From Bugula neritina (Eukaryota; Bryozoa; Gymnolaemata; Cheilostomatida; Bugulidae), in contig CAXIUT010000035.1 of assembly GCA_964035545.1 (NCBI GenBank), forward strand, positions 1-30,390: a stretch of 30,390 bases of DNA, read 5' to 3'. Numbering within the stretch: the first letter of the stretch is position 1; each line of letters opens with the position of its first letter. The position numbers and the translations under genes were made by a program. The notes under the pieces were generated by a model. The model made no database searches, had not been told where the DNA came from, and saw only the letters and a program-made list of their open reading frames with translations. Positions 257-30,230 of the stretch are shown here, in pieces.

Positions 257-2736
257 ATGATATAATATCCTCAAACAACCAAAAATAGAACTATTAAAGA
301 CTCATTTATAAGTAATGATAACCCTCAAAGCCATGCTTATCGAACTACTTAAACCCAAAATTATAGAGGAACCACCTAAAATTATTCTCAATCCCATTAA
401 AGACCTCGATCCAGCAGTGAACAATACGGAAGTACTCTGAACTAATTTTTAAACAATGGTGTGACCAAGCCAGGCAAGTACAACAATAAGTATTCCTTCA
501 AGCGAATGCCAAAAGAGAGAGCGAATTAGCGCCCAAATAGTGAATACAGATAAGTACAAACAAACAGACCTGTTATGCCTGAAAGAGTTAGCTATCTCAA
601 CGAATACAAAGAGACAGTTATAAATAGAAATACAGCTAATAACCAAAGGGAAGTAGTAACAGTGAAGCAGTAAAGCCAGTAATGGTAGAAATAAATTATG
701 CAATTGAGAATGAAAGTAGCTGAGCAAGAAGGATTATTGAATCAGATTCGATAGGTAGCATTCAATCGGAAGCAATAGTGTGAGAGACAGAATGCGATTG
801 GAGATAGAAAGTGTATCAATACTCTTGTAGATATTCATAATTTGGCGATTAGAGGTACTACATATCAGTCATTAGCTTATGTTCAAGAGCAAAAGCAGAT
901 GACCATGTCAAATATTCATATTAATCCTCCTACGATTGTTCATAATCCAGTGCCACCGCCTCATATCAATATTACTCATCGTCCTGTTGTTATTCATAAA
1001 CCTGCAGTTATCAATATTTCAGATCAAGCTCCACCTATAATGCCTTCATCATTTCCTAAAGTTCAATCTCCAGAACAGAATTTTGGTAATACTCAAAATA
1101 TTTCTTCTAAACTCGCTAACTATGAGCAATAAATAAGAGATTTGAAGTTAAAAATTGAGAAATTGTAGCAAAATAATTAAAATTTAAAGGGAAAAATAAA
1201 TCATATGTAGAATAATGCTCCAGTACAAGGAATAGACAGAAATATGTTATAGAAGTACAGATAGGAGATAGTTAGACTAAAGCAAGAGATATAGATGATA
1301 AAATAAAAACAAAATTATGAAGAGCATTATTTAAAATTAAAAGAGGATTATGATAAGCTAGTTATTATTAACTAGTAATTAGCCAAACAAAGTACATAGA
1401 ACTACAATAATTTGTAGAAAGCTGAGGATTATATATTGGAGTTGAGAGTATCGATTTAGGAATATTAAAAAAATTAACAAGCTATGAGATAGGAATATTA
1501 GTTAGAGATAAATAGTATTAATGGACAGATAAATATCTTCCAGAATAAAATAGAATAATATAAACTAACCACTGATAAAAAGGAAACTTAAGCTAAAGGA
1601 GATGATCTTGTTGTGGAAAATGGTAAATTGATATTAAAGACTGTGTTTCTTATGGAGGAAATATATCGACTTAATTTGCTTTATTAGGAATTTAGAGGGC
1701 ATCTTGAAAAGGCAGAAGGGCATATTAAATAGACTCAAATTTATATTAAAGAATTATAAGATAATATTGTATCATTAAAATTCAAATATGAAGCAAATAA
1801 CATGTCTGAACTCAAAATTAAGGAATTAGAAAGTAAAATAACATATCTAAGTCAGCAGATAGTACAATATTAAAGTAAAAATAAATTGCAAAAAGATTAA
1901 ATATCAAAAATATAATCTCAATACACTTTGAGTCTCAAAGAAATCAACCAGAAAAACAGTATTCTTTAAGAATTAAATAAAAAACTTAATTTAAAAGTAG
2001 GTAAAAATTAAGAGAATACAAAAATCTTAGTTAAATTAAAATAAGTTTAATAGCATCTTTTAATAGCAGAGAAATATATTGCATAAAATACTCAATTGTG
2101 GTAAAAAGCCAGAAATGACGCTTAATTATTACCTGAGAAGTTAGCTATAATAGATGTACTTAAAAAAGATTTGGGAATAAGTCGAAGTAAAAACAAATAA
2201 TTAAGTGAGAGAATAATGCAATTCGAAAAGATTATTGAGACAATGTAAAAGAAAAGATAAAATAAAGGAGAAATAAATGCTTTGTAGAAAGAGAAAATAG
2301 AACTTTAAGGTAAAGTAAAAAAATATATGCAACTATACATAGACAGTCAAAGTGAAATGGATTAATATGAACAGCAAATTGAGGTTTTTAAAATATAGGC
2401 ATAAAAAAATAGAAATATTTAGAAGATTTTGACATAAAAGGAAAGCAATTTATCTAATGAACTTTCTTCATATCAAGTTATGTATAAAGATATATCGAAT
2501 CATCTTCAAGGAGCTGAGGCATACATTAAAGATCTATAGGGACAACTGTCTAAAATGAGATAGCAATATAATTAGGGTATTTATCTATTAATATAGTTTA
2601 AGCTTCACATAAGGCAGTAAATTAGCATAAAATAGTGCATTCTTCAGCTTTATAAAATGCAGAGCAGCAGATATTCCAGATGGAGAAGATAATGCCCAAA
2701 ACAACTGTCAAACATGCAGGAATTATTAGATTGTGA
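257..2736 (+). CDS. long coiled-coil protein (one 20-nt intron)
   Basis: Reading TAA and TAG as sense, a single frame runs from the ATG at 257 through more than 770 codons. It then needs removal of a 20-nt intron at 2577-2596 to reach a natural TGA at 2734-2736, giving 819 residues. About the first 280 residues are polar and low in complexity, with a His/Pro/Ile-rich patch (NPVPPPHINITHRP) near residue 235. From about residue 290 to the end the protein is a heptad-rich, Lys/Glu/Gln-rich coiled coil without membrane segments. Length and composition suggest a cytoskeletal or centrosomal/basal-body scaffold, but I recognise no named family. Without the intron the C-terminus turns into an implausible Tyr/Ser/Ile-rich tail, which supports splicing. 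It is convergent with the next gene, 132 bases away. Confidence 0.85.
2577..2596 (+). other. intron, 20 nt
   Basis: GTATTTATCTATTAATATAG. Removing it restores the coiled-coil frame through residues such as ASHKAVNEHKIVHSS to a TGA at 2734. It lies after the first base of a codon. Confidence 0.8.
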
Positions 2737-2868
2737 TCAATACAAACCATACTTTTATTATTCATACTATTTTACTGCAATCCATATTGTTTTGTCAAAA
2801 AAATAAGGAGTAATATTACTCATTAAAATGTCTCTTATAAGATATGATAATAATGAATATCAATATGA

Positions 2869-5793
2869 TCATAATTGTTTTCCTAGAGCTTGATATTTTA
2901 ATCTGATGATTTACTGTTCTTTAGTGTCAAGTTGTAGGCTGAGTTCTGATACTTTACGTTGTCTTTCTGACACCTAATCTTATAAATATTGATATTTTTA
3001 TTTCATTATATTGTATTCATATAGAGTTTCTTCAGCATTCTATAGTTGCTTTTACAATCTTAGTACTATGAGTTGCTAATGTTAAAGTTATGCGTTCTTT
3101 TTATTAATTTATCTTTATTTCTATCTTTACAAATTCTCAAATTTATTTTGAAGTTCTTTGATTTTATTTATGCTACTAGATTGTTCATTTAGATAGTTAA
3201 ATGGACTGAAATTATTTTATTATTGATTATTAATTCTTTTTTGTTTTAAAGATTAATTCTATATTCTAATTTTATTCATTTTTTATTTTTGATTAATAAA
3301 ATGTTAATGCAATTGTTTATAATTTTATTTCAATTTATTCTAAGTTTATTGATATTTATAGCTTTCTTATTATATTTTAGATTGAATGATATTTTGTATA
3401 TTTTATTTATACTTTTTATATTAATTTTTTATTTACTAGTTAACATGCATTAGTTCTAAACAATTATTTTAGAGATTAGCATATTACTATCTACCAATAG
3501 ATAAACTACTGATCAGTTTATCTTTTTATTGGTTATCTTCTCTTAACTGATCTGCTTAATTTTGTAGATTTCCAATCATCAATGAATATTCTTTATTTCT
3601 TTGTTATGTTTCTTGAACTCTTTTTAAAGTTATTTCATGTTTGTCTACTAAATTTATTAACTATCGTTTTAGCATCTATGTCTACTCGAATAATTATCTT
3701 CTCTATGTGCTAATAGAAGATTATTGTTATCGACAGAAAGTTATCTATTCACGTAGTTGTCTATTTTAGGCTTATATTTATTTATTAATACAATCTGCAT
3801 GCATTGAGGCATTGAGAGCTAGTTATTTTGCTTGAAGGAGATGTTGAATTTATTATGCTAGCTGTTGATTTCTAGAAGCTAGCTAGTTTATTTGATTTGA
3901 CATCTAAGATGCTTATTACTATGCATTTTTTAGTTATACTTGTCTTATCTTCAAATTTAAATTTTTTATTGTTTTTTACATTTATTCTTTTATTTTATTT
4001 ATCTCTTTAGTTTTTTATTATTTTATTATTTAGATTTATAGCTATTTTTCATATTTATGTCGTTATCTTTATAATTAGTTTTGATATTTTATTCTTTTTA
4101 GTTCATCTTATTGCTATTTTATTATCTATTGATAATTTTATTGGCTTTTTATTTTTTTATTTTAATCTTACATTTATACACTTACAACTAGAGGAGGATT
4201 CAATATTTCCTTTCTTTATCTCTATTTCTTAAATTATGATATTGTTTTTTCATAAATTGTATTTTTAATTTAAAGTTATTCGGCTTTTTATTTGAATATT
4301 TATATTTTTTAATTCATTTATTTACTTTGTTTCAATTATAGATCTCTTTATTTTTAATATTTTAGACATTTTTATGATAATTATTTTATTCTATTCGATG
4401 ATTCTTATAGTTTTTTATTTAAATATTTAATTTATTAATCTTTGTTATTTTATTGAGTTTATTATGTAGATTAAAGCTTTTCTATTCTGTTTAATAATTA
4501 TATTCTTTCATCTACTGTTTAATAGTTCTTTTGGATTAATATCTAATTTTATTATTTAAGTTTCTTTATTTATAATTATAATTTTTCATTTTTATCAAAC
4601 TATTAACTTAAATATTAGTTTTTATCTTTTTATCATTTTTATTTATCTAATTTTTGTATTAATTTATTTCTCTAGTATATCTATAATAAATCTTTTCCAA
4701 AATTTTATTATCCATATTTCGATATAAAATGATAAATACTTTATTTTCTATTCTATTAACTTTCTTTTTAATTAATACATGAAATAAACCATTTTAAATC
4801 TTTTATTTAAGTTGATAATTCCTCATTTTTTTTATTTTGAGTTGAAAGATCAGCTATTAATTGATTTATGCTTTCCTCTTCTGCTTTTTTTATTTAAGAA
4901 TTCGAATATAAATTTCCTTTACTATAACTATAATTATGAATAAGTAATTTCTATCCCGAACGTTATCTTAAATAAAATATCTATCTAAAAAGTGGTTCAA
5001 AGAGTGGTTGTATTTTTTAATGCAGAGATAATAATCTTTTAGTAACATCTTCTTTAGAATAGATATTATTACTTAATTTTAGTATAAAATCTTTAATTGA
5101 ATTTTATTTATAATTTCTAGATTATATTTAAATACAATTAGATTGTAAATATTAAACTATTTTTTTACTTTTATTTCTCATTTATTCATTAACTATTCTA
5201 TCTAATTATGAAAATTATTGACTTATCCCATATCTCATCAATTTATTAAAAAATGATAATATCTATTCATAACTATGAGCCTTTGATTAATACTGTCGAC
5301 CTGTTGCTAGTCGATTAGCTATTTTAATGATGTTATCTCTTTCCATATAACCCATAACTTTAAAATTTTTATTAAGATTATTTTATAAGGATTTTACTTT
5401 CTATTTATCGATGTCCAAAAGATCTGCTATTAAGGTTACATATGTAGTATAGCATTAACTATCTCGGTCTTTTTCATTTAGCATTGTTCTTAACTTTTTT
5501 ATGCTATCAGATATATCATCTTTGTTCATTTATTTTTATTTTTATTTGCTTTTTTTACTAAATACCTTTTTTTACAGAAGAAGGTCTTTTACTTCATCAA
5601 TTATTCGGCTATTTTATTCTAATTGAACTTTTGTATATTTAAAGTAGTTGATAATATCGTCTTTGAGTTGTTCTCCTGGGTTTTTAGCTAAAGAATATTT
5701 GGAATTGGGGAGTTTATTGAATCGACTTATGAGACTTTGTAGTTCCCATTTTTCGTGACTTGTGAAGTTGACTACTATTGGATCTGAATACAT
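2869..5793 (-). CDS. giant coiled-coil protein with one in-frame TGA
   Basis: On the minus strand one frame of 975 codons runs from the ATG at 5793 to the TGA at 2871-2869. The only break is a TGA at 4635-4633, about codon 387. Residues 1-280 look partly globular, with helices such as CYTTYVTLIADLLDIDK. From about residue 310 the protein is a dense Lys/Glu/Leu heptad coiled coil that ends in SELSLQLDTKE. Coding character is equally good on both sides of the TGA, and no ATG in this frame restarts it until well downstream. Two nearby GT..AG options do not help, because the only candidate intron that would remove the TGA is 114 nt long. The codon could be a sequencing error, a disabling mutation or a read-through site. 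By shape this is a cytoskeletal or centrosomal scaffold. I recognise no family. Confidence 0.8.
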
Positions 5794-5822
5794 GATTTAT
5801 TTATAAGAAGAATGAATATATA

Positions 5823-5993
5823 TCAATAAAGAGGTTTATATTTCAAACTTTGACAAAGTTTATCAAAAGTAATTATTTTACTATTCTTTACTATCTAAAC
5901 CAATGATATTCTTCTCTTCTTTTCTTATATTATTGCATTTGAATTTGCCTGATAGGATCGATACTAATTGGCCAATTAGCTATCAACGTTCAT
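5823..5993 (-). CDS. possible 56-residue protein
   Basis: A short minus-strand frame begins MNVDSELANEYRSYQANS and ends at a TGA at 5825-5823. It sits 16 bases after the stop of the small membrane-protein gene and 29 bases before the start of the coiled-coil gene, so it would fit the tight spacing of this chromosome. Its residues (polar, Lys/Glu/Ser/Ile mix, three TAR codons) resemble neighbouring genes more than random AT-rich sequence. No domain is visible. It could instead be plain 5' leader of the coiled-coil gene, or a mis-joined exon. Confidence 0.35.
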
Positions 5994-6009
5994 AATACCT
6001 CTATATCTG

Positions 6010-6358
6010 TCAACTTGATTTATAGTAAAAGCTATTATCAAATGAGGAAGCATTGACTCGATTGTTAGTCTTCTTTTTGCTAAATATCCAAAATGATACT
6101 TTTATATCGGTAATAGATCATACCTAAAGTTGAACATATGATATAGCCAATTCCTTTTAAAGAGTAGATATATTGTCCTATATTGTAGGGTAAATATTTA
6201 TTGTTACCTTATATTGATTCATAATATTTCTTTTACATCATCATTTTTAGTTCTATTTTTTTGATGATGTTGAAGATCAAAGAATCAGTGAGTTTGTTTG
6301 ATTATTGGCTAGTAATTTATTATTTGATTTGGATTGGTCCTTTCTCTCTTGTATCCAT
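6010..6358 (-). CDS. small membrane protein (one 25-nt intron)
   Basis: The ATG at 6358 opens a frame beginning MDTREKGPIQIK. A 25-nt intron at 6123-6099 shifts it into a frame ending SFDNSFYYKSS before a TGA at 6012-6010, for a total of 107 residues. Residues about 61-85 (IYSLKGIGYIICSTLVSFWI) form one hydrophobic span followed by a basic patch, SKKKTNNR. That pattern suggests a single-pass membrane protein with a short polar tail. Without the intron the frame also closes, with a similar length but a less coding-like tail. I do not recognise a family. The gene is divergent from the giant plus-strand gene, with 136 bases between them. Confidence 0.6.
6099..6123 (-). other. probable intron, 25 nt
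   Basis: On the minus strand it begins GTATGATCT and ends ATAAAAG. It is longer than the 19-20 nt introns elsewhere here and ends AAAG rather than TAG or CAG. Removal gives a more natural C-terminal sequence. Confidence 0.55.
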
Positions 6359-6494
6359 CTTTTAATATCTTAATTTAATTCAGATAAAAATCTTATCATA
6401 ATTAGCTATTTAATTAAATAGAGAATAGTAAAAGCTAATAATAAAAACTTAAAATTCTTTTTTAAAATTATGACTGATGATTTTATATTAATTA
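6359..6494. promoter_or_regulatory. divergent intergenic region, 136 bp
   Basis: This very AT-rich spacer separates two divergent starts: the small membrane protein on the minus strand and the giant SelW/SPRY gene on the plus strand. It must hold both 5' regions. I see no motif that I can name. Confidence 0.4.
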
Positions 6495-9400
6495 ATGCAA
6501 CTATTAGTACAGATAGAATATTGTATAAACTGTCATCAGCATTCATGGTGTTCAAAGCATGACGAGGAAAAGTATCTTAATTATTTTCATCTTGTTAAAG
6601 AATCTATACTGAAAAAACTAAGCTAGAATATAGATGTGTTGATAGAAACAATGTAGGTACCGAAACATTACAAAAAAATAAATAAAAGCATTAAAGATAA
6701 TAAATATTATGATTCCTAGAAGTAAGAGTAAATATTTTTCCCTAAAATTGGTGCTTTTTAAATATATTCTGATAAAATACTTATCTTTTCAAAGTTAAAA
6801 ACTGGTTTATGGCCTCACTGTGATAAAATAGCATAGACTATCTTTCAAATGTCAGAGGCTAAAAAAGCTAATAAAGATCTAAATAGGTTTGCATATAAAG
6901 GGAAAAAAGTTCAAGTTGATAAAAACAAACTCCAAAATGCTATTTTCAAAAGAATAGGAGGAAACTAATCAGATTTATTAAAGTAACCAGAAGAAGACCC
7001 TTATATGTATACTTAAAATATCACTTCTCAACCTGTAAAATCAAAATAATTTCAAAAAAGCATGAATTATTAAAGTCCTCATAACAACTTGCCTTCAAGT
7101 GCTAAAAGTTATAATAAAATATATTCATCTGATTTTTATACAAAAAAGGAAAAAGCAAAAATTGAAAGGATAAGATCTCAAGAGAAATCTAAAAAGAAAC
7201 AAAATAGAATCAAAAAAATATATAATGATTATTTAGATTTTAAATAACCAGAACTGAAGGAAGATGTTTCTACACCGTATGCAAAATCTTTATCTAAAAC
7301 TAAAAAACATCATAAAGGATATTCTTCTCCAATAAAAAATCTAAATCCTCTTGATAAAATGATTGATGATGAGTTGAATTAATTCTAAATGGAAACTCCT
7401 CACGAATTGAGAGATTAATAAAAAAAGAAGTTATATAAAAAGTACAATATTGATCCTGAAGAAAAAGGTATTAAAGGAGTTAGTCAACAAAAAATAATTG
7501 AAGAAAAAATAAAATATTAGACTTTACTTGATGCTTTGAAGCAAGAGGAATAAAATTATGTTGAAAAGTTAGAGGTATTAAACAAGAAACTTGGAGTTCC
7601 TAAAAAATATAGTAAATTATCAGATCCTAAAAAAACTATGAAAAATAATGTTGATACCTAGAGAGTAAGAACATAAAATTAAAGAGAAGAAATAGCATTG
7701 CCAAAAATAAAAACTGAAACTAGTCATTAACAAAATACATAAAAAAATTCATAACATTATTCAAAATAAATATAATCGAGAAAAACTAGTAAAGTAAGAG
7801 AATATTAAAATAGTGATTATTCAGAGCCAAATTCTTCTCATAATATAACTAAAGGAAAAATATTTAATCAGAAAAGATCAATTAAATCCAAGATATCTGA
7901 TAGAAATATACCATAAGAATAGAAGAAATTTGGGAGAATAAAAGGTGAGGGAATAAGAAGAAAGGTGGATAATTATATAAATGATACGAAATAAAAGAAG
8001 GTTTAAGCCTAATAAGTTGAATCACCTGTTAAATAATAGAAATAAAGGAAGACATTTAGTTTAAAGAAAGTCATGGATATATATATTTAAAATCCTGTCA
8101 AATTAAATACTTTATTAAGTCAAAAAAGAGAGTATAAAGTTGAAAAGCAGGTTATAAATTAAAGTATTCAGATAGCAATGAGAAAAAGATCAGTGAAGAA
8201 CAGATAATAATTATAAGTTAAAAAATAAGTGAATTAATTTATAGATTAAAGACAAGATAAAGTTTAAGAAGATGAAAAAGTAAAGAAATAGACAATGAAA
8301 TAAGAATTAAATGTGATAAAATAATAAAATAATAGTAATTATGAATCTAAACCCAGAAGATAGACTATTAAATCTGAATAAAATAATCATCATGAAAATA
8401 AGGAGGTAGTTTAATTAAATAGTATTTAAAATAAGAAATAAGAAGTTCAAAATTAATAGATATCGAAAGATAGTCCTTAAGCATAAAAATAAAATTAGAT
8501 TAAATATAAGTAAGAAGAGTAAAATGTTTAATAGAAACATTTATAATAAGAAAAAATTGAATAAACAGAAATTAAATAAAGATAAATTATAGATGAAAAT
8601 AAATAAAAAACTGAAGAGTAGTCTAAAATAAATAAAATTTAATAAAATAAATAGTAATAACCATAAAAGATAAAATAAATCTAGAAAGATTAAAAAGAAG
8701 AAGATACTCCTGAATTAATTGAAAAAGAATAAGAAAATGACTAAAATAAAAAATAATAGTATAATCTGAATAAAATTTAAGAATAAAATAAATAGGAAGA
8801 ACTTTAAAAGAAAGAGTAAATTTAATAAGTTTTAAAAGAAGAAGAAAACAATAATTAGATCATTGAATAAGAAACAATAGAGAAAATATAAACTGATTAA
8901 AATAAGAATATTTAACCTCCAATTTAGATCATAGAAACAAAAAAATAATAATAAAATTAAATCCAGAAATAAATAGTATAGTAATAAGAAAAGATAAATA
9001 AATCTTAAAAAAATTAATAAAAATAGCCTGAAACATTAAAATAAAAAATAAAAGATGAAGATAATTTCAAAAAGTAAATTTCACTAGTATCTTAATAACC
9101 TGAAAAAATATAAAAAATAATAGTTGAATCAAAAGTGTAATAATATACTTCTCAGCCAGCTTAGTCTAGCTCTGAATCAAATTTAGTTAATTATTCTTCA
9201 TAAAAAATTGAAAAAAAAGAAAGAGATAATTAGACTAGTTTAAATTCTGAACAAAAATAGCCTTAATAAAAGTAAATAATTAAATAATAAAAGTAAAAAA
9301 TAAATAACATACCAGAACCTATTGAAGAAGTACCAGAATAACATCATGAAGAAAGTATAAATTATTAAAAATAAAAAGTCGAAGAAAAAATTGAAGCTAC

Positions 9401-12400
9401 TGACAAAAAATAAGATAAATAAGAGGTAAAAAAGGAAAAATCGGAGAAATAAAAATAGATAATTGTTGTCGATTAAAATTAAATACCAAATAAATAGGTT
9501 GAGGCATAAAAAATAGAAGAAAAGCCAAAATAGTAAGAACAGAAATAATAATTTTTAGATAAATCTCAACAGAATAATAAATATTTTATATCAAGAAGGC
9601 CTCCTGGATTAATAGGTCGTTTATCTCCTAAAAGAGATAGATCATTAAATGAATCAAAAAAAGATCGATCAAAAGTAGGTAAAGTGTACACTCTAAATTA
9701 ATCATAAATTCAAAGATAAAATGATTCAAAGTAGTAAACTAAAAAATAGAGTAAAAAGATAAATTAAAGTAGAGATAGTAAGTTTTCAGATTAAAATCAA
9801 GGAATTATTTTGACTGTTAACTAGGATAGCAATGATAATCCATTTCTTGCATTATTCTAAGTTGATAGAAATAAGGTGTCTAAAAAGTATGGTGATGGAA
9901 AATGGCATATTTTGAAAACATAAGAAACTCTTCCATCTAGAGGTTTTTATTCTTTGACATTTTAGGTTATTAATTCATCATAAAATTGTATATAATTTGG
10001 AATAATGCCTGAAAGTTTTTTACCTGTTTAAAATAAGATATGTCCTAGAGCTATTGGATTTCATTTTGCTAATGGTAAAATACATGATACTAATGGTAAT
10101 AAATAAAAGAAAAGTACTGCTTGGAGAAAAGTCAGATAACCTATTCAAAATGGATAAATTGGTTTAGTATAAATGATAGTTAATATTGACTAACAAAATA
10201 TTACTTGGAAATTTCAAAATTAAGAATTTGCTCAAAGTACTATCACTGATTATTTGATTTCTTAAAAATGCGTAGCTTATATAAGTATGATTCATTCAAA
10301 TGATACAATTATATTAAGTCCAGCTAAGAAGAATAAAATTATCAAAAAGGGAGATTCTTCAAATAACAAAATAATCAAAGTGAAAAAAATAGAAGTAGAT
10401 GAAGAAAATATTAATAAAAAATAAAAAGTAGAAGATATATCTTATGTAAATGGTAAAGATAGTATTATCTAAAAAGATTAAAAATAATATAAAAATAAAA
10501 AAGAAGAAACTTTGAATAAAGAAGTCAAACAAAAGTAAGCAAATACAAGACTTTCAGCTTTGTAGAGGAATCAAGAGAGGGCAAAGCAATAGCAGCCAGC
10601 TAATGAGATTAGTATACCTATATCTCATTCTCAGATGAACAGTTCGATTCGATAGACATCACCAAGCAATATCAAAGTAAATAAATAAGAGAAATAAACA
10701 AGCGAAGGATATACTCCTATACCATTGTCAATAAGCTTTGATAAAGTATCAAACCCTTTCATTGACTTTTATGAAGTCAAATCTAATAGTATTACCAAAG
10801 TCAACGGAGCTAACTCTTGGCATATCTTGAAAACTGCTGAAATTTTACCTTCTTCAGGAAAGTATTCTTTCTCTTTTACTATTATTGAGTCTTAAATGAA
10901 CTGCATCGAAGTTGGAATCATGCCAAAAGACTATAATCCTGTTGAGAATAAAATTTGCTAAAAATCTTTAGGCCTTCATTATGCCAATGGAAAAGTTCAT
11001 GATACTAAAGGAAATAAAGAAAAAAAGACTACTTCTTGGAGAGCTGTATGCTAACCTGCTTAAAAAGGAAAAGTAGGGACTATTGAGCTTAATGTAGATG
11101 CTGATAGTCAGATTATTTAATGGAAGTTTGAAGGAAATATCATAGCTAAAAGTATCCTTACCAATTATCTTAAAGGAATTCCTTGTGTAGCCTATATTAG
11201 TGTTGTTCACCTCAAAGATACTGTCTCAATCATGAATCTTAAAATTAAATAAACTTAAACTCATCAAGTATAAGCAATTTAGGTTTAATCTAAAATATCT
11301 AAAAGAATTGCAGAAAATAATGAAAGTGAAAAGTAAGCAAATACAAGACTTTCAGCTTTGTAGAGGAATCAAGAGAGGGCAAAGCAATAGCAGCCAGCTA
11401 ATGAGATTAGTATACCTATATCTCATTCTCAGATGAACAGTTCGATTCGATAGACATCACCAAGCAATATCAAAGTAAATAAATAAGAGAAATAAACAAG
11501 CGAAGGATATACTCCTATACCATTGTCAATAAGCTTTGATAAAGTATCAAACCCTTTCATTGACTTTTATGAAGTCAAATCTAATAGTATTACCAAAGTC
11601 AACGGAGCTAACTCTTGGCATATCTTGAAAACTGCTGAAATTTTACCTTCTTCAGGAAAGTATTCTTTCTCTTTTACTATTATTGAGTCTTAAATGAACT
11701 GCATCGAAGTTGGAATCATGCCAAAAGACTATAATCCTGTTGAGAATAAAATTTGCTAAAAATCTTTAGGCCTTCATTATGCCAATGGAAAAGTTCATGA
11801 TACTAAAGGAAATAAAGAAAAAAAGACTACTTCTTGGAGAGCTGTATGCTAACCTGCTTAAAAAGGAAAAGTAGGGACTATTGAGCTTAATGTAGATGCT
11901 GATAGTCAGATTATTTAATGGAAGTTTGAAGGAAATATCATAGCTAAAAGTATCCTTACCAATTATCTTAAAGGAATTCCTTGTGTAGCCTATATTAGTG
12001 TTGTTCACCTCAAAGATACTGTCTCAATCATGAATCTTAAAATTAAATAAACTTAAACTCATCAAGTATAAGCAATTTAGGTTTAATCTAAAATATCTAA
12101 AAGAATTGCAGAAAATAATGAAAGTGAAAAGTAAGCAAATACAAGACTTTCAGCTTTGTAGAGGAATCAAGAGAGGGCAAAGCAATAGCAGCCAGCTAAT
12201 GAGATTAGTATACCTATATCTCATTCTCAGATGAACAGTTCGATTCGATAGACATCACCAAGCAATATCAAAGTAAATAAATAAGAGAAATAAACAAGCG
12301 AAGGATATACTCCTATACCATTGTCAATAAGCTTTGATAAAGTATCAAACCCTTTCATTGACTTTTATGAAGTCAAATCTAATAGTATTACCAAAGTCAA

Positions 12401-13559
12401 CGGAGCTAACTCTTGGCATATCTTGAAAACTGCTGAAATTTTACCTTCTTCAGGAAAGTATTCTTTCTCTTTTACTATTATTGAGTCTTAAATGAACTGC
12501 ATCGAAGTTGGAATCATGCCAAAAGACTATAATCCTGTTGAGAATAAAATTTGCTAAAAATCTTTAGGCCTTCATTATGCCAATGGAAAAGTTCATGATA
12601 CTAAAGGAAATAAAGAAAAAAAGACTACTTCTTGGAGAGCTGTATGCTAACCTGCTTAAAAAGGAAAAGTAGGGACTATTGAGCTTAATGTAGATGCTGA
12701 TAGTCAGATTATTTAATGGAAGTTTGAAGGAAATATCATAGCTAAAAGTATCCTTACCAATTATCTTAAAGGAATTCCTTGTGTAGCCTATATTAGTGTT
12801 GTTCACCTCAAAGATACTGTCTCAATCATGAATAAATAACTTCTCTAAACTGAATCTCCCAAATAATAAACTAATTAAATCTTACCCACTGCTAAAGTTA
12901 TCGTTTCTCATAAAGTATAACTAAAATAGAAAACATCAAAATAATAAATAATAAATATTTAAACAAAATCTCCTAATTAGACATTTTCATAATTTCCAAC
13001 TTTTAAGATCTTTCTAAATATAGATAAAGCAATAAATTCTTTTATAGATTTTTACTAAATAAAATAAAATAAAATTTAAAAAACAAATGGCCCTAATCTA
13101 TGGCATATGGTTCAATCTCAAGAGACTCTTCCATCATCTGGCAAATATAGTTTATCTTTTACAATCCTCAAATCAGGATTAAACTGTATTTAAGTTGGTA
13201 TTTTACCTGATTAATATACAGTAACATAAAATAGAATTTGTACTAAATCTTTAGGTTTTCATTTTGCTAATGGTAAAATACATGATACTAAAGGAAGAAA
13301 ATAAAAGTCATCAACAGCTTGGAGATAAGTATGCTAGCCTGCTAAACCTGGAACTCTTGGCACTATTTAGCTTGATATTGATTATGATTCTTAAATAGTT
13401 TACTGGAAGTTTTAAGGCAAAGTATTTGCAGAAAGTGTTATAACAAATCATTTATTAAGTAAACCTATGAGAGCTTATGTTAGTATGGTTCATATAAATG
13501 ATTTAATACTTCTTAACCAGCCATTCAAATAATCAAAAAAGGATGTTAAAATAAATTGA
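6495..13559 (+). CDS. 2354-residue SelW/Rdx plus five-SPRY-like-domain protein
   Basis: This is a single uninterrupted frame from the ATG at 6495 (or an in-frame ATG at 6477) to the TGA at 13557. I checked every TGA inside it for phase. Residues 1-125 resemble the selenoprotein W/Rdx thioredoxin-like fold: IEYCINC with Cys10/Cys13 as a CxxC in place of CxxU, then KIGAFEI (86-90) and SKLKTGLWPHC. Residues about 170-1080 are hydrophilic and repetitive, dominated by Lys, TAR and GAR codons. Five domains of about 170 residues follow near 1105-1273, 1411-1580, 1677-1846, 1943-2112 and 2172-2340. Each carries WHILKT, LPSSGKYS, CIEVGIMP, GLHYANGKVHD, GTIELNVD, WKFEG and VAYISVVH motifs. This is a SPRY-like beta-sandwich pattern (GKYSFSF / IEVGIM / GTIELNVD / WKFEGN). 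The middle three lie in identical 798-bp repeats. The likely role is a large binding or scaffold protein. The function is unknown. Confidence 0.85.
10531..12833 (+). repeat. tandem array, 798-bp units, about 2.9 copies
   Basis: Units run 10531-11328, 11329-12126 and 12127-12833. The last copy stops after 707 bases, where the sequence diverges from the unit. As far as I can read, the copies are identical base for base, including synonymous positions. The unit is 266 codons, so the array stays in frame. Each unit encodes a linker beginning ANTRLSALERNQER plus one SPRY-like domain. The flanking domains 1 and 5 are clearly diverged, so the array is a recent expansion or is kept uniform by gene conversion. 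Confidence 0.97.
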
Positions 13560-14725: not shown

Positions 14726-16321
<1,596 letters not shown>

Positions 16322-17578: not shown

Positions 17579-17701
17579 AATTTATATTTTATACTCCAAT
17601 TTAAACATAGCCACTAAATAACATAAATGTTGACTAATTCAATCTCTTTAATAATTTATGCATATTTTATTCAATTTATTTTACATATTTATATAAATTC
17701 A
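17579..17701. promoter_or_regulatory. divergent intergenic region, 123 bp
   Basis: This spacer separates two divergent start codons, the PH/papain-like gene on the minus strand and the TFIIS-like gene on the plus strand. It is strongly AT-rich and I see no recognisable element. It should contain both promoters. Confidence 0.4.
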
Positions 17702-18850
17702 ATGAATTAATAAGAACCAAAAGAATAGCCGCCACAAAATATTGATCCTGAAATGGAAAGATTAAATTCTTTAGGGAGTTTAAGATCCATAGATTCAGCC
17801 AATAAATAGCCTTTATAAAAAAAGAATGAGGAAGAAGGGTTGGAACTTCAAGTTGTTCAAAGTAAAGTTGATAAGGGTATTAATCGATAAGAAATTATGA
17901 GAATGTTTAATGAACAAGTACAGAGAGAGGAGCTAGAAAGAGAAGAGATATAAAAAAGAAGAATGTAGATGCGTTTGAAGAGTAAATAGATGCCTAAAAT
18001 AACTCCAAAAAGATCACAAGTTGAAGATAAAAAGATAAGTAAATAACAAGCTATTCAACAAGCTTTAAATTAAAAGAATTTACGCCTTCGTAAAAGAGTT
18101 TAACCTATTTCAAGAAAATACCATACATTGTATCGACCTTCAATTTATGATACTAAAATGAATAGATATAGATTTTAATGTAAAGAAAAACTGATTATCA
18201 ATCTCTGTTTTGGAATAGAGGAACTACGTGAACTTGATCCACAATAGCTTTCTGAAGCAGATAGAGATATTATTAATCAAGATTCTTACTATTTGGTTAA
18301 AAAAAAGGCTACTTTGATTGATGCAAGTATGGTTAAACTTCTTAATAAAGGAGATAGAAATGATATAAGTCGATAGTATAAAACTCAATGGGAAACTTTA
18401 CTAACGAATATTAAAGATTAAAGTAACTTAGAGTTAAAACGTAAAATTTTAACAGGAACATTTGAGCCAACTAAAATAGCAGTAGCTAATGAAATTGATT
18501 TTTTTACTTTGGCTAAAAGAGAACAAATTATTGAAAAGCAAAAGCGATACGTGGCTGAATTTACAGTTGAAAAAGCTATTGTGCCTTCTATGAGACCTGA
18601 AAACGAAGAAATAATGGATAGACCTCGACCTAAATTAGTAGAAGAGCCTTCTCAAGTAGAAATACCCGTTCTTAAGACTAAACACAGCAGTTTAGCAAAC
18701 AAGTATATTGAAGAATCATCGATAACTCAAATATAGGAGTTGTTAAGCGAAAGACAGTTGGAGAAGATGTTGAAAAGGTTGTAAGAGGACCTTCATGGAC
18801 AATCTAAGACAATGTTGATGGATAATTTTAAGAAAACATTCTAAGTATGA
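17702..18850 (+). CDS. TFIIS-central-domain-like protein
   Basis: An intronless frame of 382 residues runs from the ATG at 17702 to TGA 18848-18850. The N-terminal 140 residues are charged and helical. Residues about 225-290 read REYKTQWETLLTNIKDESNL, ELKRKILTGTF, EPTKIAVANEIDFFT and LAKREQIIEKQKRY. This follows the TFIIS middle domain and its relatives in SPOC/PHD proteins: YxxxxxxLxxNLKDxxNxxLxxxxLxGxxxPxxLAxMxxxELA. TFIIS itself would also need a C-terminal zinc ribbon (RSADE motif), which is absent. This is therefore not a full elongation factor but possibly a transcription-linked protein with a TFIIS-M-like module. The tail has Pro-rich stretches (DRPRPKLVEEPS) and a final helix. It converges on the next gene, with 46 bases between them. 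Confidence 0.72.
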
Positions 18851-20713: not shown

Positions 20714-20750
20714 TGTATTTGATAATTTCTAATTGATCTATATATAGATA

Positions 20751-22262
20751 TCACTGTTATTCTTTATTTTATTTGTTTTTAGCAGTTAGTTAGCGAAGAA
20801 CTGGGAGGTGATCTGCTAATACTACTTATAGCTACTTCTTTTAAAATCCTTAGCCGGTAAATTAGTATTTTGTTTTTATTATGAACTAGATATCTTCTAC
20901 TCGAACTCCATATAGCTTCATCAGTACGACTAGCTTTTGTCTTACAGTTGAAGTGCTGAAGGCAAGAGTGCATAGTATGATATCGATGATTTATACTACT
21001 ATCAGACCTTATTTGACTTTTTAGTAATATTGTTAAGGTCCACTCTCCTTAAATACATCTTTACCTATGTTTTGCATGTATTATGTTCTGATTTCAAAGA
21101 GTTTTTAAAGTTTACTAAATCTTTTTTCAGTTAATTTGGCTTAAACTCTCGCTCTATAGATTTAATTATCACTTCTGATCATAACTAATACTACTCTCAT
21201 GCAATTTTAATCGATTACCATTTGTTAGTCGATATCTTTTCCTTTGAGACCTTGTCGATGCAAAATAGGAAATATATATTTCAGAGATCCTAAATCTATA
21301 AACTAGTCGATTAATTTATTTTACAGCTAATGAGGTAGAAACATAAAAGAGTTAGCAATAGATTTGAGTGCTGAAATAGAATAGTTATTTTTTGCCTTGA
21401 TAAAAAGAAGCATCATCTAATTGCCTTTCATCTAATGGTATATTATCTTTGATTTAAGCAGTTATTATGATTGATTGATCAGCACCACGCTCAAGCAGTC
21501 AAACAAATTACTAACATATTATTTTTAATCATTGTTTCCTGGAGATTTAGATTGATATGGTTTGATAGATTATACTAGAATTTCCATGCCATACAATCGA
21601 TGGAATTTCAGCTGTGCGTTTTAAGAATTAGTCAGTAGTGAAATAAGTAGATCACTACCTACATATTTATTATCATCGATTACTTTATGTTTGACGATAT
21701 AGTTGGGCATAATTCTATTGGCCAAATAATCGATTATTTTAGTATCTGTGACTAGTAGTTCGATTGAGGTGTCGACTTGTTCGACTAGTGCTTATAGTAT
21801 TTTCAATATTTTGAGGGATACTTCATATTATTCAACGCTTTCTTATTCGTCCATTTTGTTTAGTGTTTATACTAGAGATTAGTATAGTCCGTTTTAGACC
21901 AGCCACACACACATGCGGTAGTATACTTCAAATATTTAGTCTTTCTCTGGTTATTATGCTACTATCTAGTGGATAAATTCAATGCAGCTGATGTTGATGT
22001 CTGAGTTGGGATGGTTGAGGAGTTTTAGAATAGAAGTTAGTACTTTAGATTCGATCACTATTGATATGTGTTATTGTGTGAGTTATTGCATGCCTTGGAG
22101 GATGGTGTCGATGTTTTATTAGGATTGGTAGAAACGCATGGGTTCGGTAGGGTATTTCATTCTGAGGTTTATGTTTGTTTCATAGAGATTGTGTAAGTCT
22201 TTGTGGTAACTTTCAAGTAGTGGAAGGGTTATCTCGTTCTCAGGTTAAGGTTTTTACTACAT
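20751..22262 (-). CDS. CTNNBL1: beta-catenin-like protein 1 (spliceosome-associated armadillo protein)
   Basis: An intronless frame of 503 residues runs from the ATG at 22262 to TGA 20753-20751. CTNNBL1 is an armadillo-like helical protein that binds the Prp19/CDC5L complex of the spliceosome. The sequence follows the family from near the N-terminus: MKYPTEPMRFYQS, DTILQGMQ, SILKLLNHPNSDINIS, then SLV-TLNKMDE, YVSNLFDCLSVVL, YSISALKSIANSF, LGSLKYIFPI, GLIVVEIIDIIL and VRQKLVVLMKLYGV. It is shorter than the human protein of about 563 residues, mainly at the N-terminus, where the nuclear-localisation region lies. TAR codons fall on Glu positions of the family (QSE at the helical start, E before YVSNLFD, LE in KILKILEALVE). 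It is divergent from the small coiled-coil gene, with 162 bases between the two starts. Confidence 0.85.
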
Positions 22263-22424: not shown

Positions 22425-22830
22425 ATGAGTAATCTGAGTGAATCTCCATAGAAAGAAGGTCAAAATTCAACTCACGCAACTGGTCATTTAACTCTAGTTG
22501 AAGTACTTATATCTAACTAAGAACTTGGCTCGTGAGGCAGATAAAGACCAGCAGTAGTATCATAAATTGATAGAATTATACCGTCAAGATCTGAACTCTA
22601 TGAAAAATAAAATAACCAACATCGATGAGTAGATAGTCTAGACTATGACTCCTCTGATTGAGTCATTGTACCGCAGTTTGTAGTTGGGAATGACGAACCA
22701 GAAATAGGAGAACAGTAATTTTCAGGAGCAGATGACTGAATTGAAGAAAGAGAAATCTATATTGAGTCAGATGATTGTGGCATCGTTTAAGCGTTGTGAG
22801 CAGTTGAACGAGGACGTGGGTCATTATTGA
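22425..22830 (+). CDS. small coiled-coil protein (one 19-nt intron)
   Basis: The ATG at 22425 opens MSNLSESPEKEGQNSTHATG. A 19-nt intron at 22503-22521 joins it to NLAREADKDQQEYHKLIELY, and the frame closes at TGA 22828-22830, for 128 residues. After a polar N-terminus of about 25 residues the protein is helical and rich in Glu, Gln, Lys and Leu (SLYRSLELGMTNQKEE, QMTELKKEKSILSQM). This is consistent with a short coiled coil. There is no membrane segment or catalytic motif. The stop is only 23 bases before the hydrolase start on the same strand, so the two may share transcription signals, though I see no evidence of a joint transcript. Family not recognised. Confidence 0.75.
22503..22521 (+). 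other. intron, 19 nt
   Basis: GTACTTATATCTAACTAAG. A 25-nt alternative starting six bases earlier at GTTGAA keeps the same frame. The GTA start favours the 19-nt form. Confidence 0.75.
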
Positions 22831-22853
22831 TCTATTCTATATTCAAATATATA

Positions 22854-25087: not shown

Positions 25088-25198
25088 ATCTTTATACTTA
25101 AGATAATTATTTATTAAGATAAAATAGATTAATATAGTTTAATTTTGAATGGAATAGAAGTATCTAAGCTGACAAATAATATTTTAATAACTTTTAGA

Positions 25199-26659
25199 AT
25201 GTTTGGAGGATAAAGTTAAAGAAACCTCTTACATTCGACTCCCAACATCCGAATAGCTCCTGACAAAGTGACCCTATATCATGAAAAACAACAATATTCT
25301 AAAGAGATATTCGTATAAAGTGCCTAATAATCAAGTATTTTACACGTACCTATCTACATCTACGGCTATATGAATGAATTAATAAAGGTTGATATTGAGT
25401 AGGAGTATGTAAGTGGTAGATTTACTATATATGCGACTCCTTTGATAAATTTGTTGATAAGTCATGTGTTGTAGTTGAGGAAGAAGGAAATAGCTGAGAT
25501 GGATGCTAATCGAATTAATCGCTATATTCGTTCTTAGTTGGATAAAGTTAAAGATTATATAAGGAATAATTTGATTTTAGAGTGTGGAGAAACTGTGATT
25601 GATATTATTAACTAGAATAAGATAAAACAAAAAAATAGGAAGTATAGTTTGTAGTCATTTGATGAGGAATCTGGAAGTGATTAAGATTAGGACTAACCTG
25701 ATAACTTTTATTACAAAGAAGTAGTGAATAGTTAGGCTGTAAATACTGTTACTTATCAGATAAAAGGTATTTTTACTTGTGAATTTGACTGGGATAATTT
25801 TTACTTTCCTTATCTAGAAATAGTTTCTGCTCTTAAAATCAGAGCAAGACAGCTATATTATGATAAAATTATAATAAGGTATAATATGTTAGAGTTCAGT
25901 AAGAATTCCTAATCTTTTGTTAGACAATTTTGTTTGAAATTCATACAAAAAAGTGAGACTCAATTTGGTATATATAATGTGAATTGTCAGGAGGGGAGTT
26001 ATTCTGTGAATGCAGTCAAAAAATAAATGTAGAAACATCATTATTAATAGAATAATCGGTATTCTATTCCTACTATGGATTAATATTTTTCTGAAACGAG
26101 GTATTTTTAGTTTAAATTTCAAGTATTTTCTTATAATTTACCTTTTATGCTGAGAAATTTGATTCCTCATTTGATATTGCTTTTTGTGTCTATTATGAGT
26201 TATTTTGGAGGAGCCGATTAAATACCTCCAGTTTATGGTAATATAATTTTGCTAGGAATTACTTTGATAGAATCGCTATCTAATTTTAGGAGGAGCAAGT
26301 TTGACAATTCAACTATAAATATATATCAGATTAATCTTTTTGGTATCATTTTGATAAATCTTATGTTATTTATAGTTTCTACTAAAAATTTTTATGGAGA
26401 CAATAACTAAAAACCAAATATTAATGCTGAAAATGCTATATTTTGGATATCTGTGGGAATAGGAGTCTTTTTCTTTGCTTCTAATTACTACATATTTTTT
26501 TATTTTGGATTAAAAAAATAATAATACTCCTTTGAGTCGTTAAAAGTGATGAAAAAGAAAAGAATGGAGTGGTGGATATGGAATTAGTAGGAGATAATTG
26601 AAACTCTTAATGAAGTATAACCTACTGTATCATCTCTTACTTCATTGAGTAGTGTTTGA
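25199..26659 (+). CDS. four-TM protein resembling a pentameric ligand-gated channel subunit
   Basis: An intronless frame of 486 residues runs from the ATG at 25199 to TGA 26657-26659. The first 310 residues are polar with beta-rich stretches (HVPIYIYGYMNELIKVDIE and TVTYQIKGIFTCEFDWDNFY). Four hydrophobic segments follow: LRNLIPHLILLFVSIMSYF, YGNIILLGITLIESLSNF, INLFGIILINLMLFIVS and IFWISVGIGVFFFASNYY. A charged tail of about 45 residues (KVMKKKRMEWW) closes the protein. A large N-terminal beta domain, with the ion-channel-like IKGxFxxxFDWxxFYFP stretch followed by M1-M4, fits the Cys-loop/pentameric channel plan. However, there is no signal peptide, no Cys-loop that I can see, and an acidic insert (DEESGSDEDEDEP). 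It could be another four-TM family. Family assignment is inference from topology. Confidence 0.68.
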
Positions 26660-26704
26660 TTATTATGATATTTTATATTTTCAATATTATTTTGAATATT
26701 TAAT

Positions 26705-28822
26705 ATGAAAGCTAATAAGGAAAAAGAGTGGCAGTTTTAAGAATAAGTTAAATGCCAGGAACTACCTTTTAACGAAGAATAAACTATAAAGCTTTAAAAT
26801 TCTATTCTATATGTAAGGTACAAACAATGGTTAAAAGATCATGGTGCCTTAATTGATTCTCGTCTCAGATATCCTTCCTATTTTGGAGAAGCTAAGAAAG
26901 GAGTTATTGGAATAAGCGCTGCTCAGATGATAGATAAAAATAGAGCTGTTATCGCTGTACCTTACAACTTACTTATTACGGTTGAAAAAGTAAAATAAGA
27001 TATTTAGCTCTTTGAAATAGTTAAAGATAATGTGAGTTATTTTAAACATGACTAAGACGCAGCTATGAAAATATTAGTTCTTTACATATCTAGTGAGTTG
27101 ATTAAAGGTTAAAAATCTATCTATTATCCTTATTTTTGTATTTCTAATTAAGATTTTCTTAGTGGTTGGGAAAGCAGGTACTTACATATGCTTGAAAATA
27201 GAGATCTAATGAAGAAAATGAAGGAACAGCGTTAAGTTATTGAACTTTAGTTTATGAATTTTTTAAGAATCTATCGTAGATATGATAATATTTTTCCTCA
27301 AAAAATGAGTAATAACTAATACCAAAAAATATTCTAAAAATCTTATATTTTTATTGTTACTCGAGCATTTGGATGGTCTCTTCCTTCCATATCTCTGATT
27401 CCACTAGGTGATTCTTTGAATCATAGTAATATCAGATATGTTAATCATTTCGTAGTAAACACTGAGGAAGAAGTCAATCCTAAGCAAGAGGAATTAATGA
27501 CTCAGACTGGATATAAACAGTATCACAAAGAAGTTAACTTATCTTTGCTAAAGAATGAAAGTTTAAAGTTAGAAGAAAAGGATTTGGCTTAATTAAGAAA
27601 GTAGAAAAAGAGTAAGGTGATGAAGTTTGTTTAGAAACATCAGGATTTATTGATTCAAAGTGAGAAACTAAAAGGAATGTAGATAGAGAAGATAGTTTTA
27701 CCTAAAAATAAATCTGAACTTAGAAATAAACAGTATCATATTTTACATCAACAGTATAAAGCTGGTGTCCATAAATTGAAAAATCTTCATTTTTATTAAT
27801 CGTCTTGCGATTAAGATAACGATACTGATGAAGAGACTTTATTTGAGAGAGAGATGAAGTATGAGAAGTTTACATTTTACGATAAGGAAAGAGTAGTTAA
27901 TGAAAATAACAAGAAAAAGGAAGTAAAAAAGTTATGGAAGATGTATTTATAAGATTCAGAATAAGAAGAGGAAGAAGAATAAAAGCCTTAAAGAATTAAA
28001 AATCAAACAAGTAAAAAATAGAATTAGAAATTAAAAGAAGAAATAAAATAAAAGTTGTTTAAATAAAACGAATCAAGTGAAGTATCATATGAAGATTCTG
28101 AAGATGAAGATGATCCTGTTTGGGACTGGATTGATAAGGCTAATCATAAAAAGACATATTTTATAATGAGTACTAAGGAAGTAGTGAGATAGAAATAACA
28201 AATTTATAACTTCTATGGAAGAAGAACAAATAGATTTTTACTTAGCAATTACAATTTTGTATTAAAAGATAATATCTATGATTCATATCCTCTAAGTGTC
28301 AAATTGGATGATAAAATATCGACTAAAGTAGGTGTATCTAAGTTACTTATATTTTCTAAGAAAGAAGAGGAAGGAATTAAGAGTAGGTAGTTTAGTTTAA
28401 AGAGATATTTGATAAATAATGATTTGGTCAATATTTGTCGAAGTTATGTTATTTTATGGAATAAAAAATAATGGAATCAGTGTCGATTGACTATTCCTTT
28501 TGATAGATAAATTGAGGTTAAAACTTTGGAGTTGTATCAGTAAATTATCAAATATTTATCTAAATAGTTTACAACTTCTATTGAATAAGATTAATAAGAA
28601 GAGGAAGAAGAGGTACTTAAACATGAAGAAAGAATGTCGATTCTTTTTAGAAATTAATACAAAAAGATTCTTAAAGGTCAAGATAAGTTAATAGTTCGTA
28701 GTCTTCAATATCTGAAGAAGTGGGAAGTGAACTCTATTCAGAAGTTTTAGTAGCCAGATATGAAGTGGATAAAAAGATTGAAGCCATATATATTATCTCT
28801 TGAATCTGCAGTTTCTTTATGA
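26705..28822 (+). CDS. SETD3/SETD6/LSMT-type SET-domain methyltransferase with large insertion
   Basis: The frame from the ATG at 26705 to TGA 28820-28822 has 705 residues. The N-terminal half of a SET domain of the Rubisco-LSMT/SETD3/SETD6 class is visible: GVIGISAAQ, AVIAVPYNLLITVEKVK, ALK-type helices, then FIVTRAFGWSLP and LIPLGDSLNHSNIR (the class NHs motif, near residue 240). About 220 charged residues follow, including acidic tracts, before the second half resumes: REKEQIYNFYGRRTN (class GEQIxxxYGxxxN), RFLLSNYNFVLKDN. A substrate-binding-like helical region covers roughly 530-700. The likely role is protein-lysine or histidine N-methylation using S-adenosylmethionine. The long insertion is unusual but keeps both halves in frame. 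The next gene starts 49 bases later in another frame. Confidence 0.82.
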
Positions 28823-28871
28823 TAGAAATGATGATTAGAATACCTTATTATAATTCCATTTATAATCGAAG

Positions 28872-30230
28872 ATGATCAAGAAAGATTTCTAAAATGAAAT
28901 AGTTCTTTTTGATGACTAGGATGAGTAGATATAATAAAATCCTGTACCTAAATAGCCAGGAGAGATATTCCTTTTCGATGATTAAGAGTGCCTTGAAGTA
29001 TCTGAATCTTTTCATGATGTTGAAGAACCATCATATTCATCGTAGGAAAGAAAAGAAATGAGTAAGGAGTAATATAGTGATAAGCTTAATGAGCTTCAAG
29101 GTAAAATTATGTTTACGAATATATCTAATTTGGGAAAAGATGTGAAAAAGGCTAAGAAGACATATTTCTAAGAGGCTAAATAAAAAAGAAAAAGTATTTA
29201 ATCTGTTTGTAAACAAAGAAATTCTAAAAGAATTTAATAAATTGTTTTTTAACCTAAAGCAGGTAAAATTAAAGTTAATTTTGATTATGACAGGTCGAAA
29301 ATTAACAACTTTTTTCATTAACAAAAAAAATAAAATCGTCTATAGAGAAAATCTCAAAAACTTGAAGAATTTTCTATGAGCGATGAAATTGTACCTGAAA
29401 GTGCTACTGAAAGTTTTAACAAACAAATGCATCAAAAAAGTTTAACAGGAGCTTAATTTAAAGAAAAGAATGATTTGAAAATCGAAGAGGATCTCAACAA
29501 GAACACTTTGAAAGTGTCTAATTTTAGATAATTTTTATACAACCAACTAAAGCCAAGTTACACAATATTTTTATCAATTAAGAAGACGGTTAGTGGGATA
29601 ATAAATTCGACATACAAGATGTATTTTCAGGAGAATAGTCGATTTGTGATGTCATGTTAGAAGCAGGGTTTTTCTAAATATGTTTTTTCAACTAGTTAGG
29701 TTCATATCGCATAAGATCATATAAGTTATTTGGGCAAGATGTAGAGTAATTTTTTTGGAACTGAGTTTCAGATGTATGATTCAGGATAGTAGTATTCAAA
29801 AACAAAAATGATGTAAAATTATAAAAAGCAGTTGGCTTCTATCAATTATCATCAAGATTAGCATCAACCTCGAGAGATAACTACTTATATTACTACTTGT
29901 GATAATAAATCGTCAGAATTTACTATATTGGATGGAAATAATGATATTATTCAAAGCAAGGTCAAATATTCTAGTTATAAAAATATACATAAGTTGAAAA
30001 GTAAAGATCCTGGATTTGATGAGAATTAGAATTGTTATAAATTAGATTTTAAGGAAGTTGCTGGAGTTGCTTCTACTAAAAATTTTATCGTTTAGAGTCC
30101 AGAATATCCTGATGCGCTTATTTTTGGAAGGCAAGATAAAGATTCTTATATAATGAGAATTAAGGCTCCTTTTTCGATAATGCAAGCAGTGTCAATTGCC
30201 ATGTCGAGTATTCATCGAAAGTTTCTGTGA
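28872..30230 (+). CDS. Tubby-domain protein
   Basis: The ATG at 28872 opens MIKKDFENEIVLFDD and runs 452 residues to TGA 28228+2000 (30228-30230), close to the telomere. The first 210 residues are charged and probably disordered, with a basic stretch (KKAKKTYFEEAKEKRK). Residues about 225-452 match the Tubby C-terminal fold: YTIFLSIKK, HISYLGKMESNFFGTEF, QMYDSGEEYSKTK, KLKSKDPGFDENENCYKL, DF, GVASTKNFIVESPEYP, ALIFGRQDKDSYIMRIKAP and MQAVSIAMSSIHRKFL. In the family the C-terminus QAFxIALSSFDxK closes a helix through the barrel, as here. Tubby domains bind phosphoinositides and, in TULP proteins, help deliver membrane cargo into cilia. An alternative reading joins it to the SET gene through a 28-nt intron (28811-28838). 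Confidence 0.88.

Follow-up and report, generated by a model that had tools for sequence, protein, structure and literature searches.

A complete ciliate minichromosome in a Bugula neritina assembly, with UAA and UAG very probably read as glutamate

The window analysed here is the whole of contig CAXIUT010000035.1 (30,390 bases; C38 in the numbering that is used here for this and all sister contigs) of the Bugula neritina assembly GCA_964035545.1, which comprises 215.8 Mb in 295 contigs. Since C4A2 repeats stand at its start (1..81, + strand; 13.5 copies of the unit) and G4T2 repeats at its end (30303..30390, + strand; 14.8 copies), the window is a complete linear ciliate minichromosome of 30,390 bases, telomere-capped at both ends. 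Very probably this chromosome is macronuclear, and belongs to a ciliate that uses UAA and UAG for glutamate and UGA as the stop codon (the code of NCBI table 30).

TAA and TAG (together TAR) must be sense codons, because the long frames of the window exist only then: no open run exceeds 117 codons when the standard code is applied, and with TGA as the sole stop the longest has 2361. TAA makes up 6.47% and TAG 1.82% of the codons in the six window genes examined. The frames were drawn with TGA as the stop, so that genes end in TGA by construction and their counts are no evidence. The view that UGA is a true stop is supported by the ends of three proteins: the frame of the ciliate's own release factor eRF1, encoded on a sister contig, finishes on the last residues shared with its relative P0002 and then meets TGA, while the cactin domain runs to profile position 124 of 125 and the Tub domain to position 254 of 256, with TGA just beyond. 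An earlier note on this DNA had claimed that all genes need TAA and TAG as sense codons and TGA as the stop, and the frame lengths and the three protein ends agree with it.

Ten window frames were scanned against Pfam with TAR read as glutamate, and six exceeded the cut-off: the kinase, CTNNBL1, Tubby and TFIIS-domain genes, a gene with a weak Rubisco-LSMT match, and a giant open reading frame (ORF). The other four had no match or one under the cut-off. The ULK1-like protein kinase gene (14726..16321, - strand; 35 TAA and 3 TAG codons) scores 232.2 bits for Pkinase, and ULK1 is its best match in the Protein Data Bank (PDB). The codon of its APE motif (15782..15784, - strand), assigned to glutamate in the earlier note, is indeed TAA and aligns with the Glu in the MAPE sequence of ULK1. 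The gene for CTNNBL1, a catenin-beta-like protein (20751..22262, - strand; 39 TAA, 8 TAG), reaches 240.3 bits for CTNNBL with TAR as Glu and has a PDB alignment; with TAG masked, the same family scores 231.1 bits for TAA as Glu, 220.4 as Gln and 211.4 as Lys. Three or more glutamate sites had been proposed for this protein, and human CTNNBL1 has Glu at 7 of the 25 aligned TAA codons. When TAR was set to an unknown residue (X), none of the 1922 candidates in a homologue search reached E<=1e-10. The Tubby-family gene (28872..30230, + strand; 17 TAA, 13 TAG) has a Pfam Tub match and a PDB relative, and does not discriminate among Glu, Gln and Lys.

The three remaining genes carry weaker domains. 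A SET/Rubisco-LSMT-like gene (26705..28822, + strand) matches Rubis-subs-bind with 24.3 bits when TAR is Glu (with TAA scored, Glu 23.4 and Gln 21.7), and no relative was found for it in the PDB search with X at TAR; its codon 28196-28198, also proposed as a glutamate site, is an in-frame TAA but lies outside the matched LSMT stretch. A gene with a TFIIS central domain (Pfam TFIIS) occupies 17627..18850 (+ strand; 12 TAA, 7 TAG). The giant ORF (6477..13559, + strand; 190 TAA, 47 TAG) encodes an N-terminal Rdx (SelW-like) match and five repeated domains, and its Ribophorin match contains no stretch that is significant by itself. The position taken in the earlier note for the Glu of a SelW GAFE motif is likewise an in-frame TAA (6759..6761, + strand), and the Rdx domain as a whole shows a weak preference at TAA (Glu 33.5, Gln 32.5, Lys 31.6, X 30.6 bits).

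The repeated domains of the giant ORF allow codons to be compared directly. Six TAR codons of domain 5 stand opposite GAR codons of domain 2 (all + strand): 13056 TAA and 10773 GAA, 13191 TAA and 10908 GAA, 13227 TAA and 10944 GAG, 13302 TAA and 11019 GAA, 13368 TAG and 11085 GAG, and 13413 TAA and 11130 GAA. Five of these columns had been described before, all at the right places, and the pair 13302/11019 is a sixth. The columns with TAR on one side only hold Glu 6, Gln 1 and Lys 1 between domains 2 and 5 (n=17), and Glu 5, Gln 1 and Lys 2 between domains 1 and 2 (n=23), mostly at the same columns. Domains 2, 3 and 4 are near-identical and spaced 798 bases apart (about 10700-12850 of the window), one tandem repeat recurring in them at 10975, 11773 and 12571, and domains 1 and 5 have diverged from them. 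Because domains 2-4 are near copies, the five columns amount to a single comparison, and the repeat-column evidence is narrower than it sounds. The name SPRY-like, given earlier to these repeats, was not confirmed, as no SPRY family was matched in Pfam at E<=0.01. Codon pairs between paralogues, taken from 13 alignments under 90% identity and from few families, agree with glutamate at both codons: TAA (n=129) is paired with TAA 30, Glu 24, Lys 11, TAG 10 and Gln 5, and TAG (n=81) with TAG 22, Glu 16, TAA 10, Lys 10 and Gln 3.

The two codons were then scored apart, because an oligohymenophorean with UAA as lysine and UAG as glutamate has been published (PMC10553269). Ten genes (three from the window and seven from sister contigs) were translated with one of the two codons set in turn to X, Glu, Gln or Lys while the other stayed X, TAG as Lys being scored for the seven sister genes only, and the sums cover 16 non-overlapping Pfam families. 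The genes, three of the six matching window genes and seven of the 25 Pfam-matching sister genes (40 scanned), had been chosen for strong domains before the codes were compared, with TAR as Glu in the window survey and as X in the sister survey; the weaker window domains (Rdx, LSMT and TFIIS) were scored last, outside these sums. For TAA the gain over X was +121.6 bits with Glu, +71.2 with Gln and +61.7 with Lys, Glu being best in 13 of 16 families; the three window families by themselves gave +47.1, +35.1 and +22.7, respectively. For TAG the gain over the 16 families was +53.0 with Glu and +42.8 with Gln, and over the 13 sister families +42.3 with Glu, +35.2 with Gln and +26.6 with Lys; Glu exceeded Gln in 11 of 16 families, with two ties.

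The residues of homologous proteins lead to the same assignment. The ciliate's own eRF1 gene (C288; L033:5039-6373, - strand) and cactin gene (L033:6693-8126, + strand) were translated with X at TAR and aligned to 120 listed of 5292 and 120 listed of 847 homologues, respectively. Among the listed homologues of eRF1, the columns of four TAA residues (57, 265, 273 and 287) and of five TAG residues (110, 118, 200, 211 and 371) are 91-100% Glu. Cactin, less conserved than eRF1, gives a less clear picture, in which Glu has the highest mean share (0.15 at TAA, 0.32 at TAG). In the close ciliate relatives of the two proteins (P0002, P0003, P0024, P0053 and P0107 for eRF1, at 77-88% identity; P0122 and P0123 for cactin), Glu occupies 19 of 31 TAA columns (Asp 4, Gln 1, Lys 0) and 10 of 15 TAG columns (Gln 3, Asp 1, Lys 1), where two-way ties were given to the first-listed relative and all three Gln at TAG are such ties.

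The PDB search with X at TAR found a relative for nine of the ten genes, and the best alignments provided 78 TAA and 36 TAG columns; this count leaves out alignment blocks without TAR and one block with TAR, a weak additional match of the L030 kinase at 3.6 bits. A BLOSUM62 score over 20 residues, joined over the PDB and close-relative columns, was Glu 80.5, Asp 36.5, Gln 26.0 and Lys -5.0 for TAA, and Glu 48.0, Gln 24.0 and Lys 18.5 for TAG, the numbers being rough since the columns are taken as independent. The control codons GAA, GAG, CAA, CAG, AAA and AAG, which are partial and have only their eight commonest residues scored, each score highest as the residue they encode, CAA by a small margin (Gln 42.0, Glu 38.0). 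In the window alone the 39 TAA columns also place Glu first (Glu 18.5, Asp 11.0, Gln 3.5). The comparison of TAR columns with homologues, which the earlier note had put forward as its own check, is led by Glu for both codons, as are the Pfam sums, and its claim of glutamate rather than glutamine stands. From these comparisons the reading of TAA as Glu, with Gln rejected, is strongly supported, and that of TAG as Glu, resting on the sister contigs, is supported.

Several results weigh against this assignment. Among the 16 families, TAA scores best as Lys in three (Tub, CactinC and Cation_ATPase), and TAG scores better as Gln than as Glu in three (Tub, L030 kinase and Hydrolase). Of the families left out for overlap, ARM_ARMC5 gives 51.1 bits for each of Gln and Lys and 47.7 for Glu at TAA, and 49.3 for Gln and 47.3 for Glu at TAG; PK_Tyr_Ser-Thr is best with Glu at TAA in both kinases, with a tie at TAG in one and Gln 86.6 versus Glu 86.4 in the other. 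The TFIIS domain prefers Gln over Glu at TAA (35.7 versus 34.9 bits), and the overlapping families and TFIIS lean slightly to Gln. The cactin homologues have mostly I, K, A, D or R at five TAA columns, and W at one TAG column. When domain 1 of the giant ORF is compared with domain 5, the one-sided TAR columns (n=15) hold Glu 0, Gln 3 (all opposite TAA) and Lys 4; the earlier count of one or two TAR/CAR columns therefore holds for the domain pairs 2/5 and 1/2 and fails for 1/5. Finally, the 13 TAG columns of the window alone give Lys 1.0, Arg -1.0, Gln -1.5 and Glu -3.0.

The eRF1 of the ciliate (C288) has the motifs RASQIKD and YNCDSRF, which are TASNIKS and YLCDNKF in canonical eRF1 and KATNIKD and YFCDSKF in Tetrahymena (PMC4695839 Table 2), and changes in these motifs are linked in PMC4695839 to the recognition of UGA only. 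We infer that this eRF1 may be UGA-only as well. The altered factor would then pass over UAR and terminate at UGA, and dedicated tRNAs with the anticodons CUA (found) and UUA (expected), probably charged with glutamate, would read UAG and UAA.

Two tRNA genes with the anticodon CUA were identified in the same assembly, one on C10 (Rfam tRNA 57.2 bits; also recognised by ARAGORN) and one on C236 (Rfam tRNA 62.2 bits), the latter being the only other BLAST match of the C10 tRNA in the assembly. Both contigs have C4A2 at their start, and both genes are followed by a run of T and do not encode CCA. The suppressor-tRNA pattern gave 13 matches versus 15 in a reversed control, which makes the count uninformative, and C10 was the one small contig among them. 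A tRNA-Glu(UUC) gene is present on C47, also C4A2-capped. Of the two suppressor tRNAs whose search the earlier note had proposed as another check, CUA was found and UUA was not, and the missing partner is a further point against the assignment: pattern searches, which presuppose an invariant T arm, recognised no UUA tRNA on C4A2-bearing contigs. With a spacing of 14-16 bases, one base too long for these tRNAs, two of the suppressor patterns matched five places, all on the large contigs C3, C4, C6 and C9, and a UUA pattern gave 14 matches versus 16 in its reversed control. Three places of the UUA pattern lie on small contigs and were set aside as presumably organelle-like sequence, two on C65 (anticodon uncertain according to ARAGORN) and one, a tRNA-Lys, on C196, neither contig starting with C4A2. 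A broad tRNA pattern gave 172 matches, and those listed reach only up to C5. Probably the contigs available here cover no more than a minor share of the genome of the ciliate.

Full-length identity to host tRNA-Glu(CUC) is 63.9% for the C10 tRNA and 56.9% for the C236 tRNA; to host tRNA-Gln it is 56.9-58.3% and 51.4-52.8%, and to ciliate tRNA-Glu 57.5% and 49.3%, respectively. Arm by arm, both were compared with three tRNA-Glu and two host tRNA-Gln, a set without ciliate tRNA-Gln from which descent is not readable. The T arm is Glu-like in both (Glu 14-15 of 17, Gln 11), and the acceptor stem is Glu-like in C10 (6-10 of 14, Gln 4) and less so in C236 (3-7, Gln 2). The D arm (of 16 positions; C10 Glu 11-13, Gln 13; C236 Glu 9-10, Gln 11) gives no decision, and base 73 is G in C10, like neither Glu nor Gln, and A in C236, which is Glu-like. 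The anticodon stem weighs on the other side, being Gln-like in both (Gln 8-10 of 14 non-anticodon positions, Glu 4-6). On suppressors related to tRNA-Gln, named in the earlier note as evidence that would overturn it, these tRNAs speak both ways, as the arms form a mosaic. One explanation might be that these UAG-reading tRNAs are former glutamine suppressors that switched to charging with glutamate, an idea suggested by the arms and unlikely to be right; if true, such a switch would have left in these tRNAs a molecular record of the change from UAR as Gln to UAR as Glu inferred from phylogeny in PMC10553269.

The code with UAR as glutamate is a peritrich trait and is present here, and from it we infer that the ciliate is probably a peritrich, the trait being diagnostic only if the code arose once. 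A small yet appreciable probability goes to the same code having arisen independently in a non-peritrich ciliate, for which it counts that no peritrich name occurs among the 120 listed eRF1 and 120 listed cactin matches (most are without an organism name), and that C4A2 telomeres are common to other oligohymenophoreans. Against such an origin, UAR as Glu is inferred in PMC10553269 to have arisen once, in Peritrichia.

An ambiguous UAG, or one partly read as another residue beside UAA as Glu, is considerably less probable than an independent origin: a separate CUA tRNA would let UAG differ, and the 13 TAG columns of the window do not single out a residue, but five eRF1 residues encoded by TAG fall on columns with 91-100% Glu, the joined score puts Glu ahead by 48.0 to 24.0, and the TAG at 13368 is paired with the GAG at 11085. 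Very improbable is the code of Tetrahymena and Paramecium, NCBI table 6, with UAR as glutamine. It is the commonest variant ciliate code (PMC11687900), does better than an unknown residue in the Pfam sums for both codons, has Gln opposite 3 of 15 TAR columns between giant-ORF domains 1 and 5, and finds an echo in the Gln-like anticodon stems. Glu is nevertheless ahead by 50.4 bits (TAA) and 10.2 bits (TAG) in the Pfam sums and by 54.5 and 24.0 in the residue score, Gln occupies one of 31 TAA columns in close relatives, and conserved Glu columns of eRF1 carry both TAA and TAG; even at eRF1 residue 82, which looks like a Gln site (Gln in 53% and Glu in 31% of homologues), each of the three close relatives with a residue there has Glu. 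The code of Oligohymenophorea sp. PL0344 (UAA as Lys, UAG as Glu; PMC10553269), which suits UAG and comes near in Meckelin (TAA as Lys 197.9, as Glu 199.4), is the least probable of all, given Lys at 0 of 31 TAA columns in close relatives, a residue score of -5.0 versus 80.5 for Glu, and TAA at four eRF1 columns that are 91-100% Glu.

The rest of the assembly may be outlined briefly. The contigs of 10 to 36 Mb, C1, C2, C3, C4, C6 and C9 among them, match conserved genes exon by exon, with one in-frame TAG in 14 listed matches, and are another organism than the ciliate of the window. Among the telomere matches listed, C4A2 is present on C10, C11, C14 and C15. Judged from fetched stretches, and one ciliate species for all not being presupposed, 17 of the 20 small contigs sampled have a ciliate appearance, with GC 0.265-0.35 and long, TAR-rich frames that stop at TGA only; the remaining three, C12, C13 and C17 (GC 0.43-0.49), lack it.

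Internal blocks of 9 to 16 exact telomere units followed by ordinary sequence were seen on sister contigs (L015 4690-4749 and 5930-6007; L016 253-306 and 9289-9372; L021 8275-8370; L023 1407-1478; L026 9026-9103; L027 1210-1281 and 8944-9009; L029 3452-3517; L030 3430-3525; L032 5205-5276), and may be alternative telomere-addition sites or chromosomes joined in assembly. C65 (70,610 bases, with a direct repeat at its start), C196 (65,006 bases) and L049-L053 are AT-rich, carry tRNA-like genes and have no C4A2 at the contig start; C65 and C196 are possibly organelle genomes. The short gap separating the eRF1 and cactin genes holds a tRNA-Pro(UGG) gene (L033 6565-6636). Another eRF1-like protein, P0054, is annotated to a seahorse on a 31-kb contig, marked low quality, and has the ciliate-like motifs KSSCIKD and YSCGLNF; it may be ciliate contamination.

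With UAR as glutamate, the translation table is fixed for the window and its sister contigs, as table 1 breaks the genes and table 6 gives the wrong residue at TAR. The assembly provides a telomere-to-telomere chromosome of a table 30 ciliate, an eRF1 and two tRNAs for UAG, and the transition of a lineage from UAR as Gln to UAR as Glu is thereby open to direct test.

The code itself is already known from the bell-shaped peritrich ciliates, as the earlier note had said, and this ciliate is a further case of it. Campanella umbellaria and Carchesium polypinum are reported to use UAR for Glu (PMC10553269), as are Vorticella and Opisthonecta (PMC4695839) and peritrichs generally (PMC11687900), and a 2003 report of UAA as Glu appears as a reference-list entry in PMC4967479 and PMC4695839. 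The code of table 6 (Tetrahymena, Paramecium, Oxytricha) shares the sense UAR and the UGA stop and differs in reading UAR as Gln, which is rejected here, and the altered TASNIKS motif of eRF1 ends in D as in Tetrahymena KATNIKD (PMC4695839 Table 2). PL0344, as described in PMC10553269, has UAG as Glu, CUA tRNA genes and a UGA stop like the ciliate studied here, whereas UAA is Lys there and Glu here. With the peritrich nuclear code of table 30 (UAA and UAG as Glu, UGA as stop) no difference in codon assignments was found.

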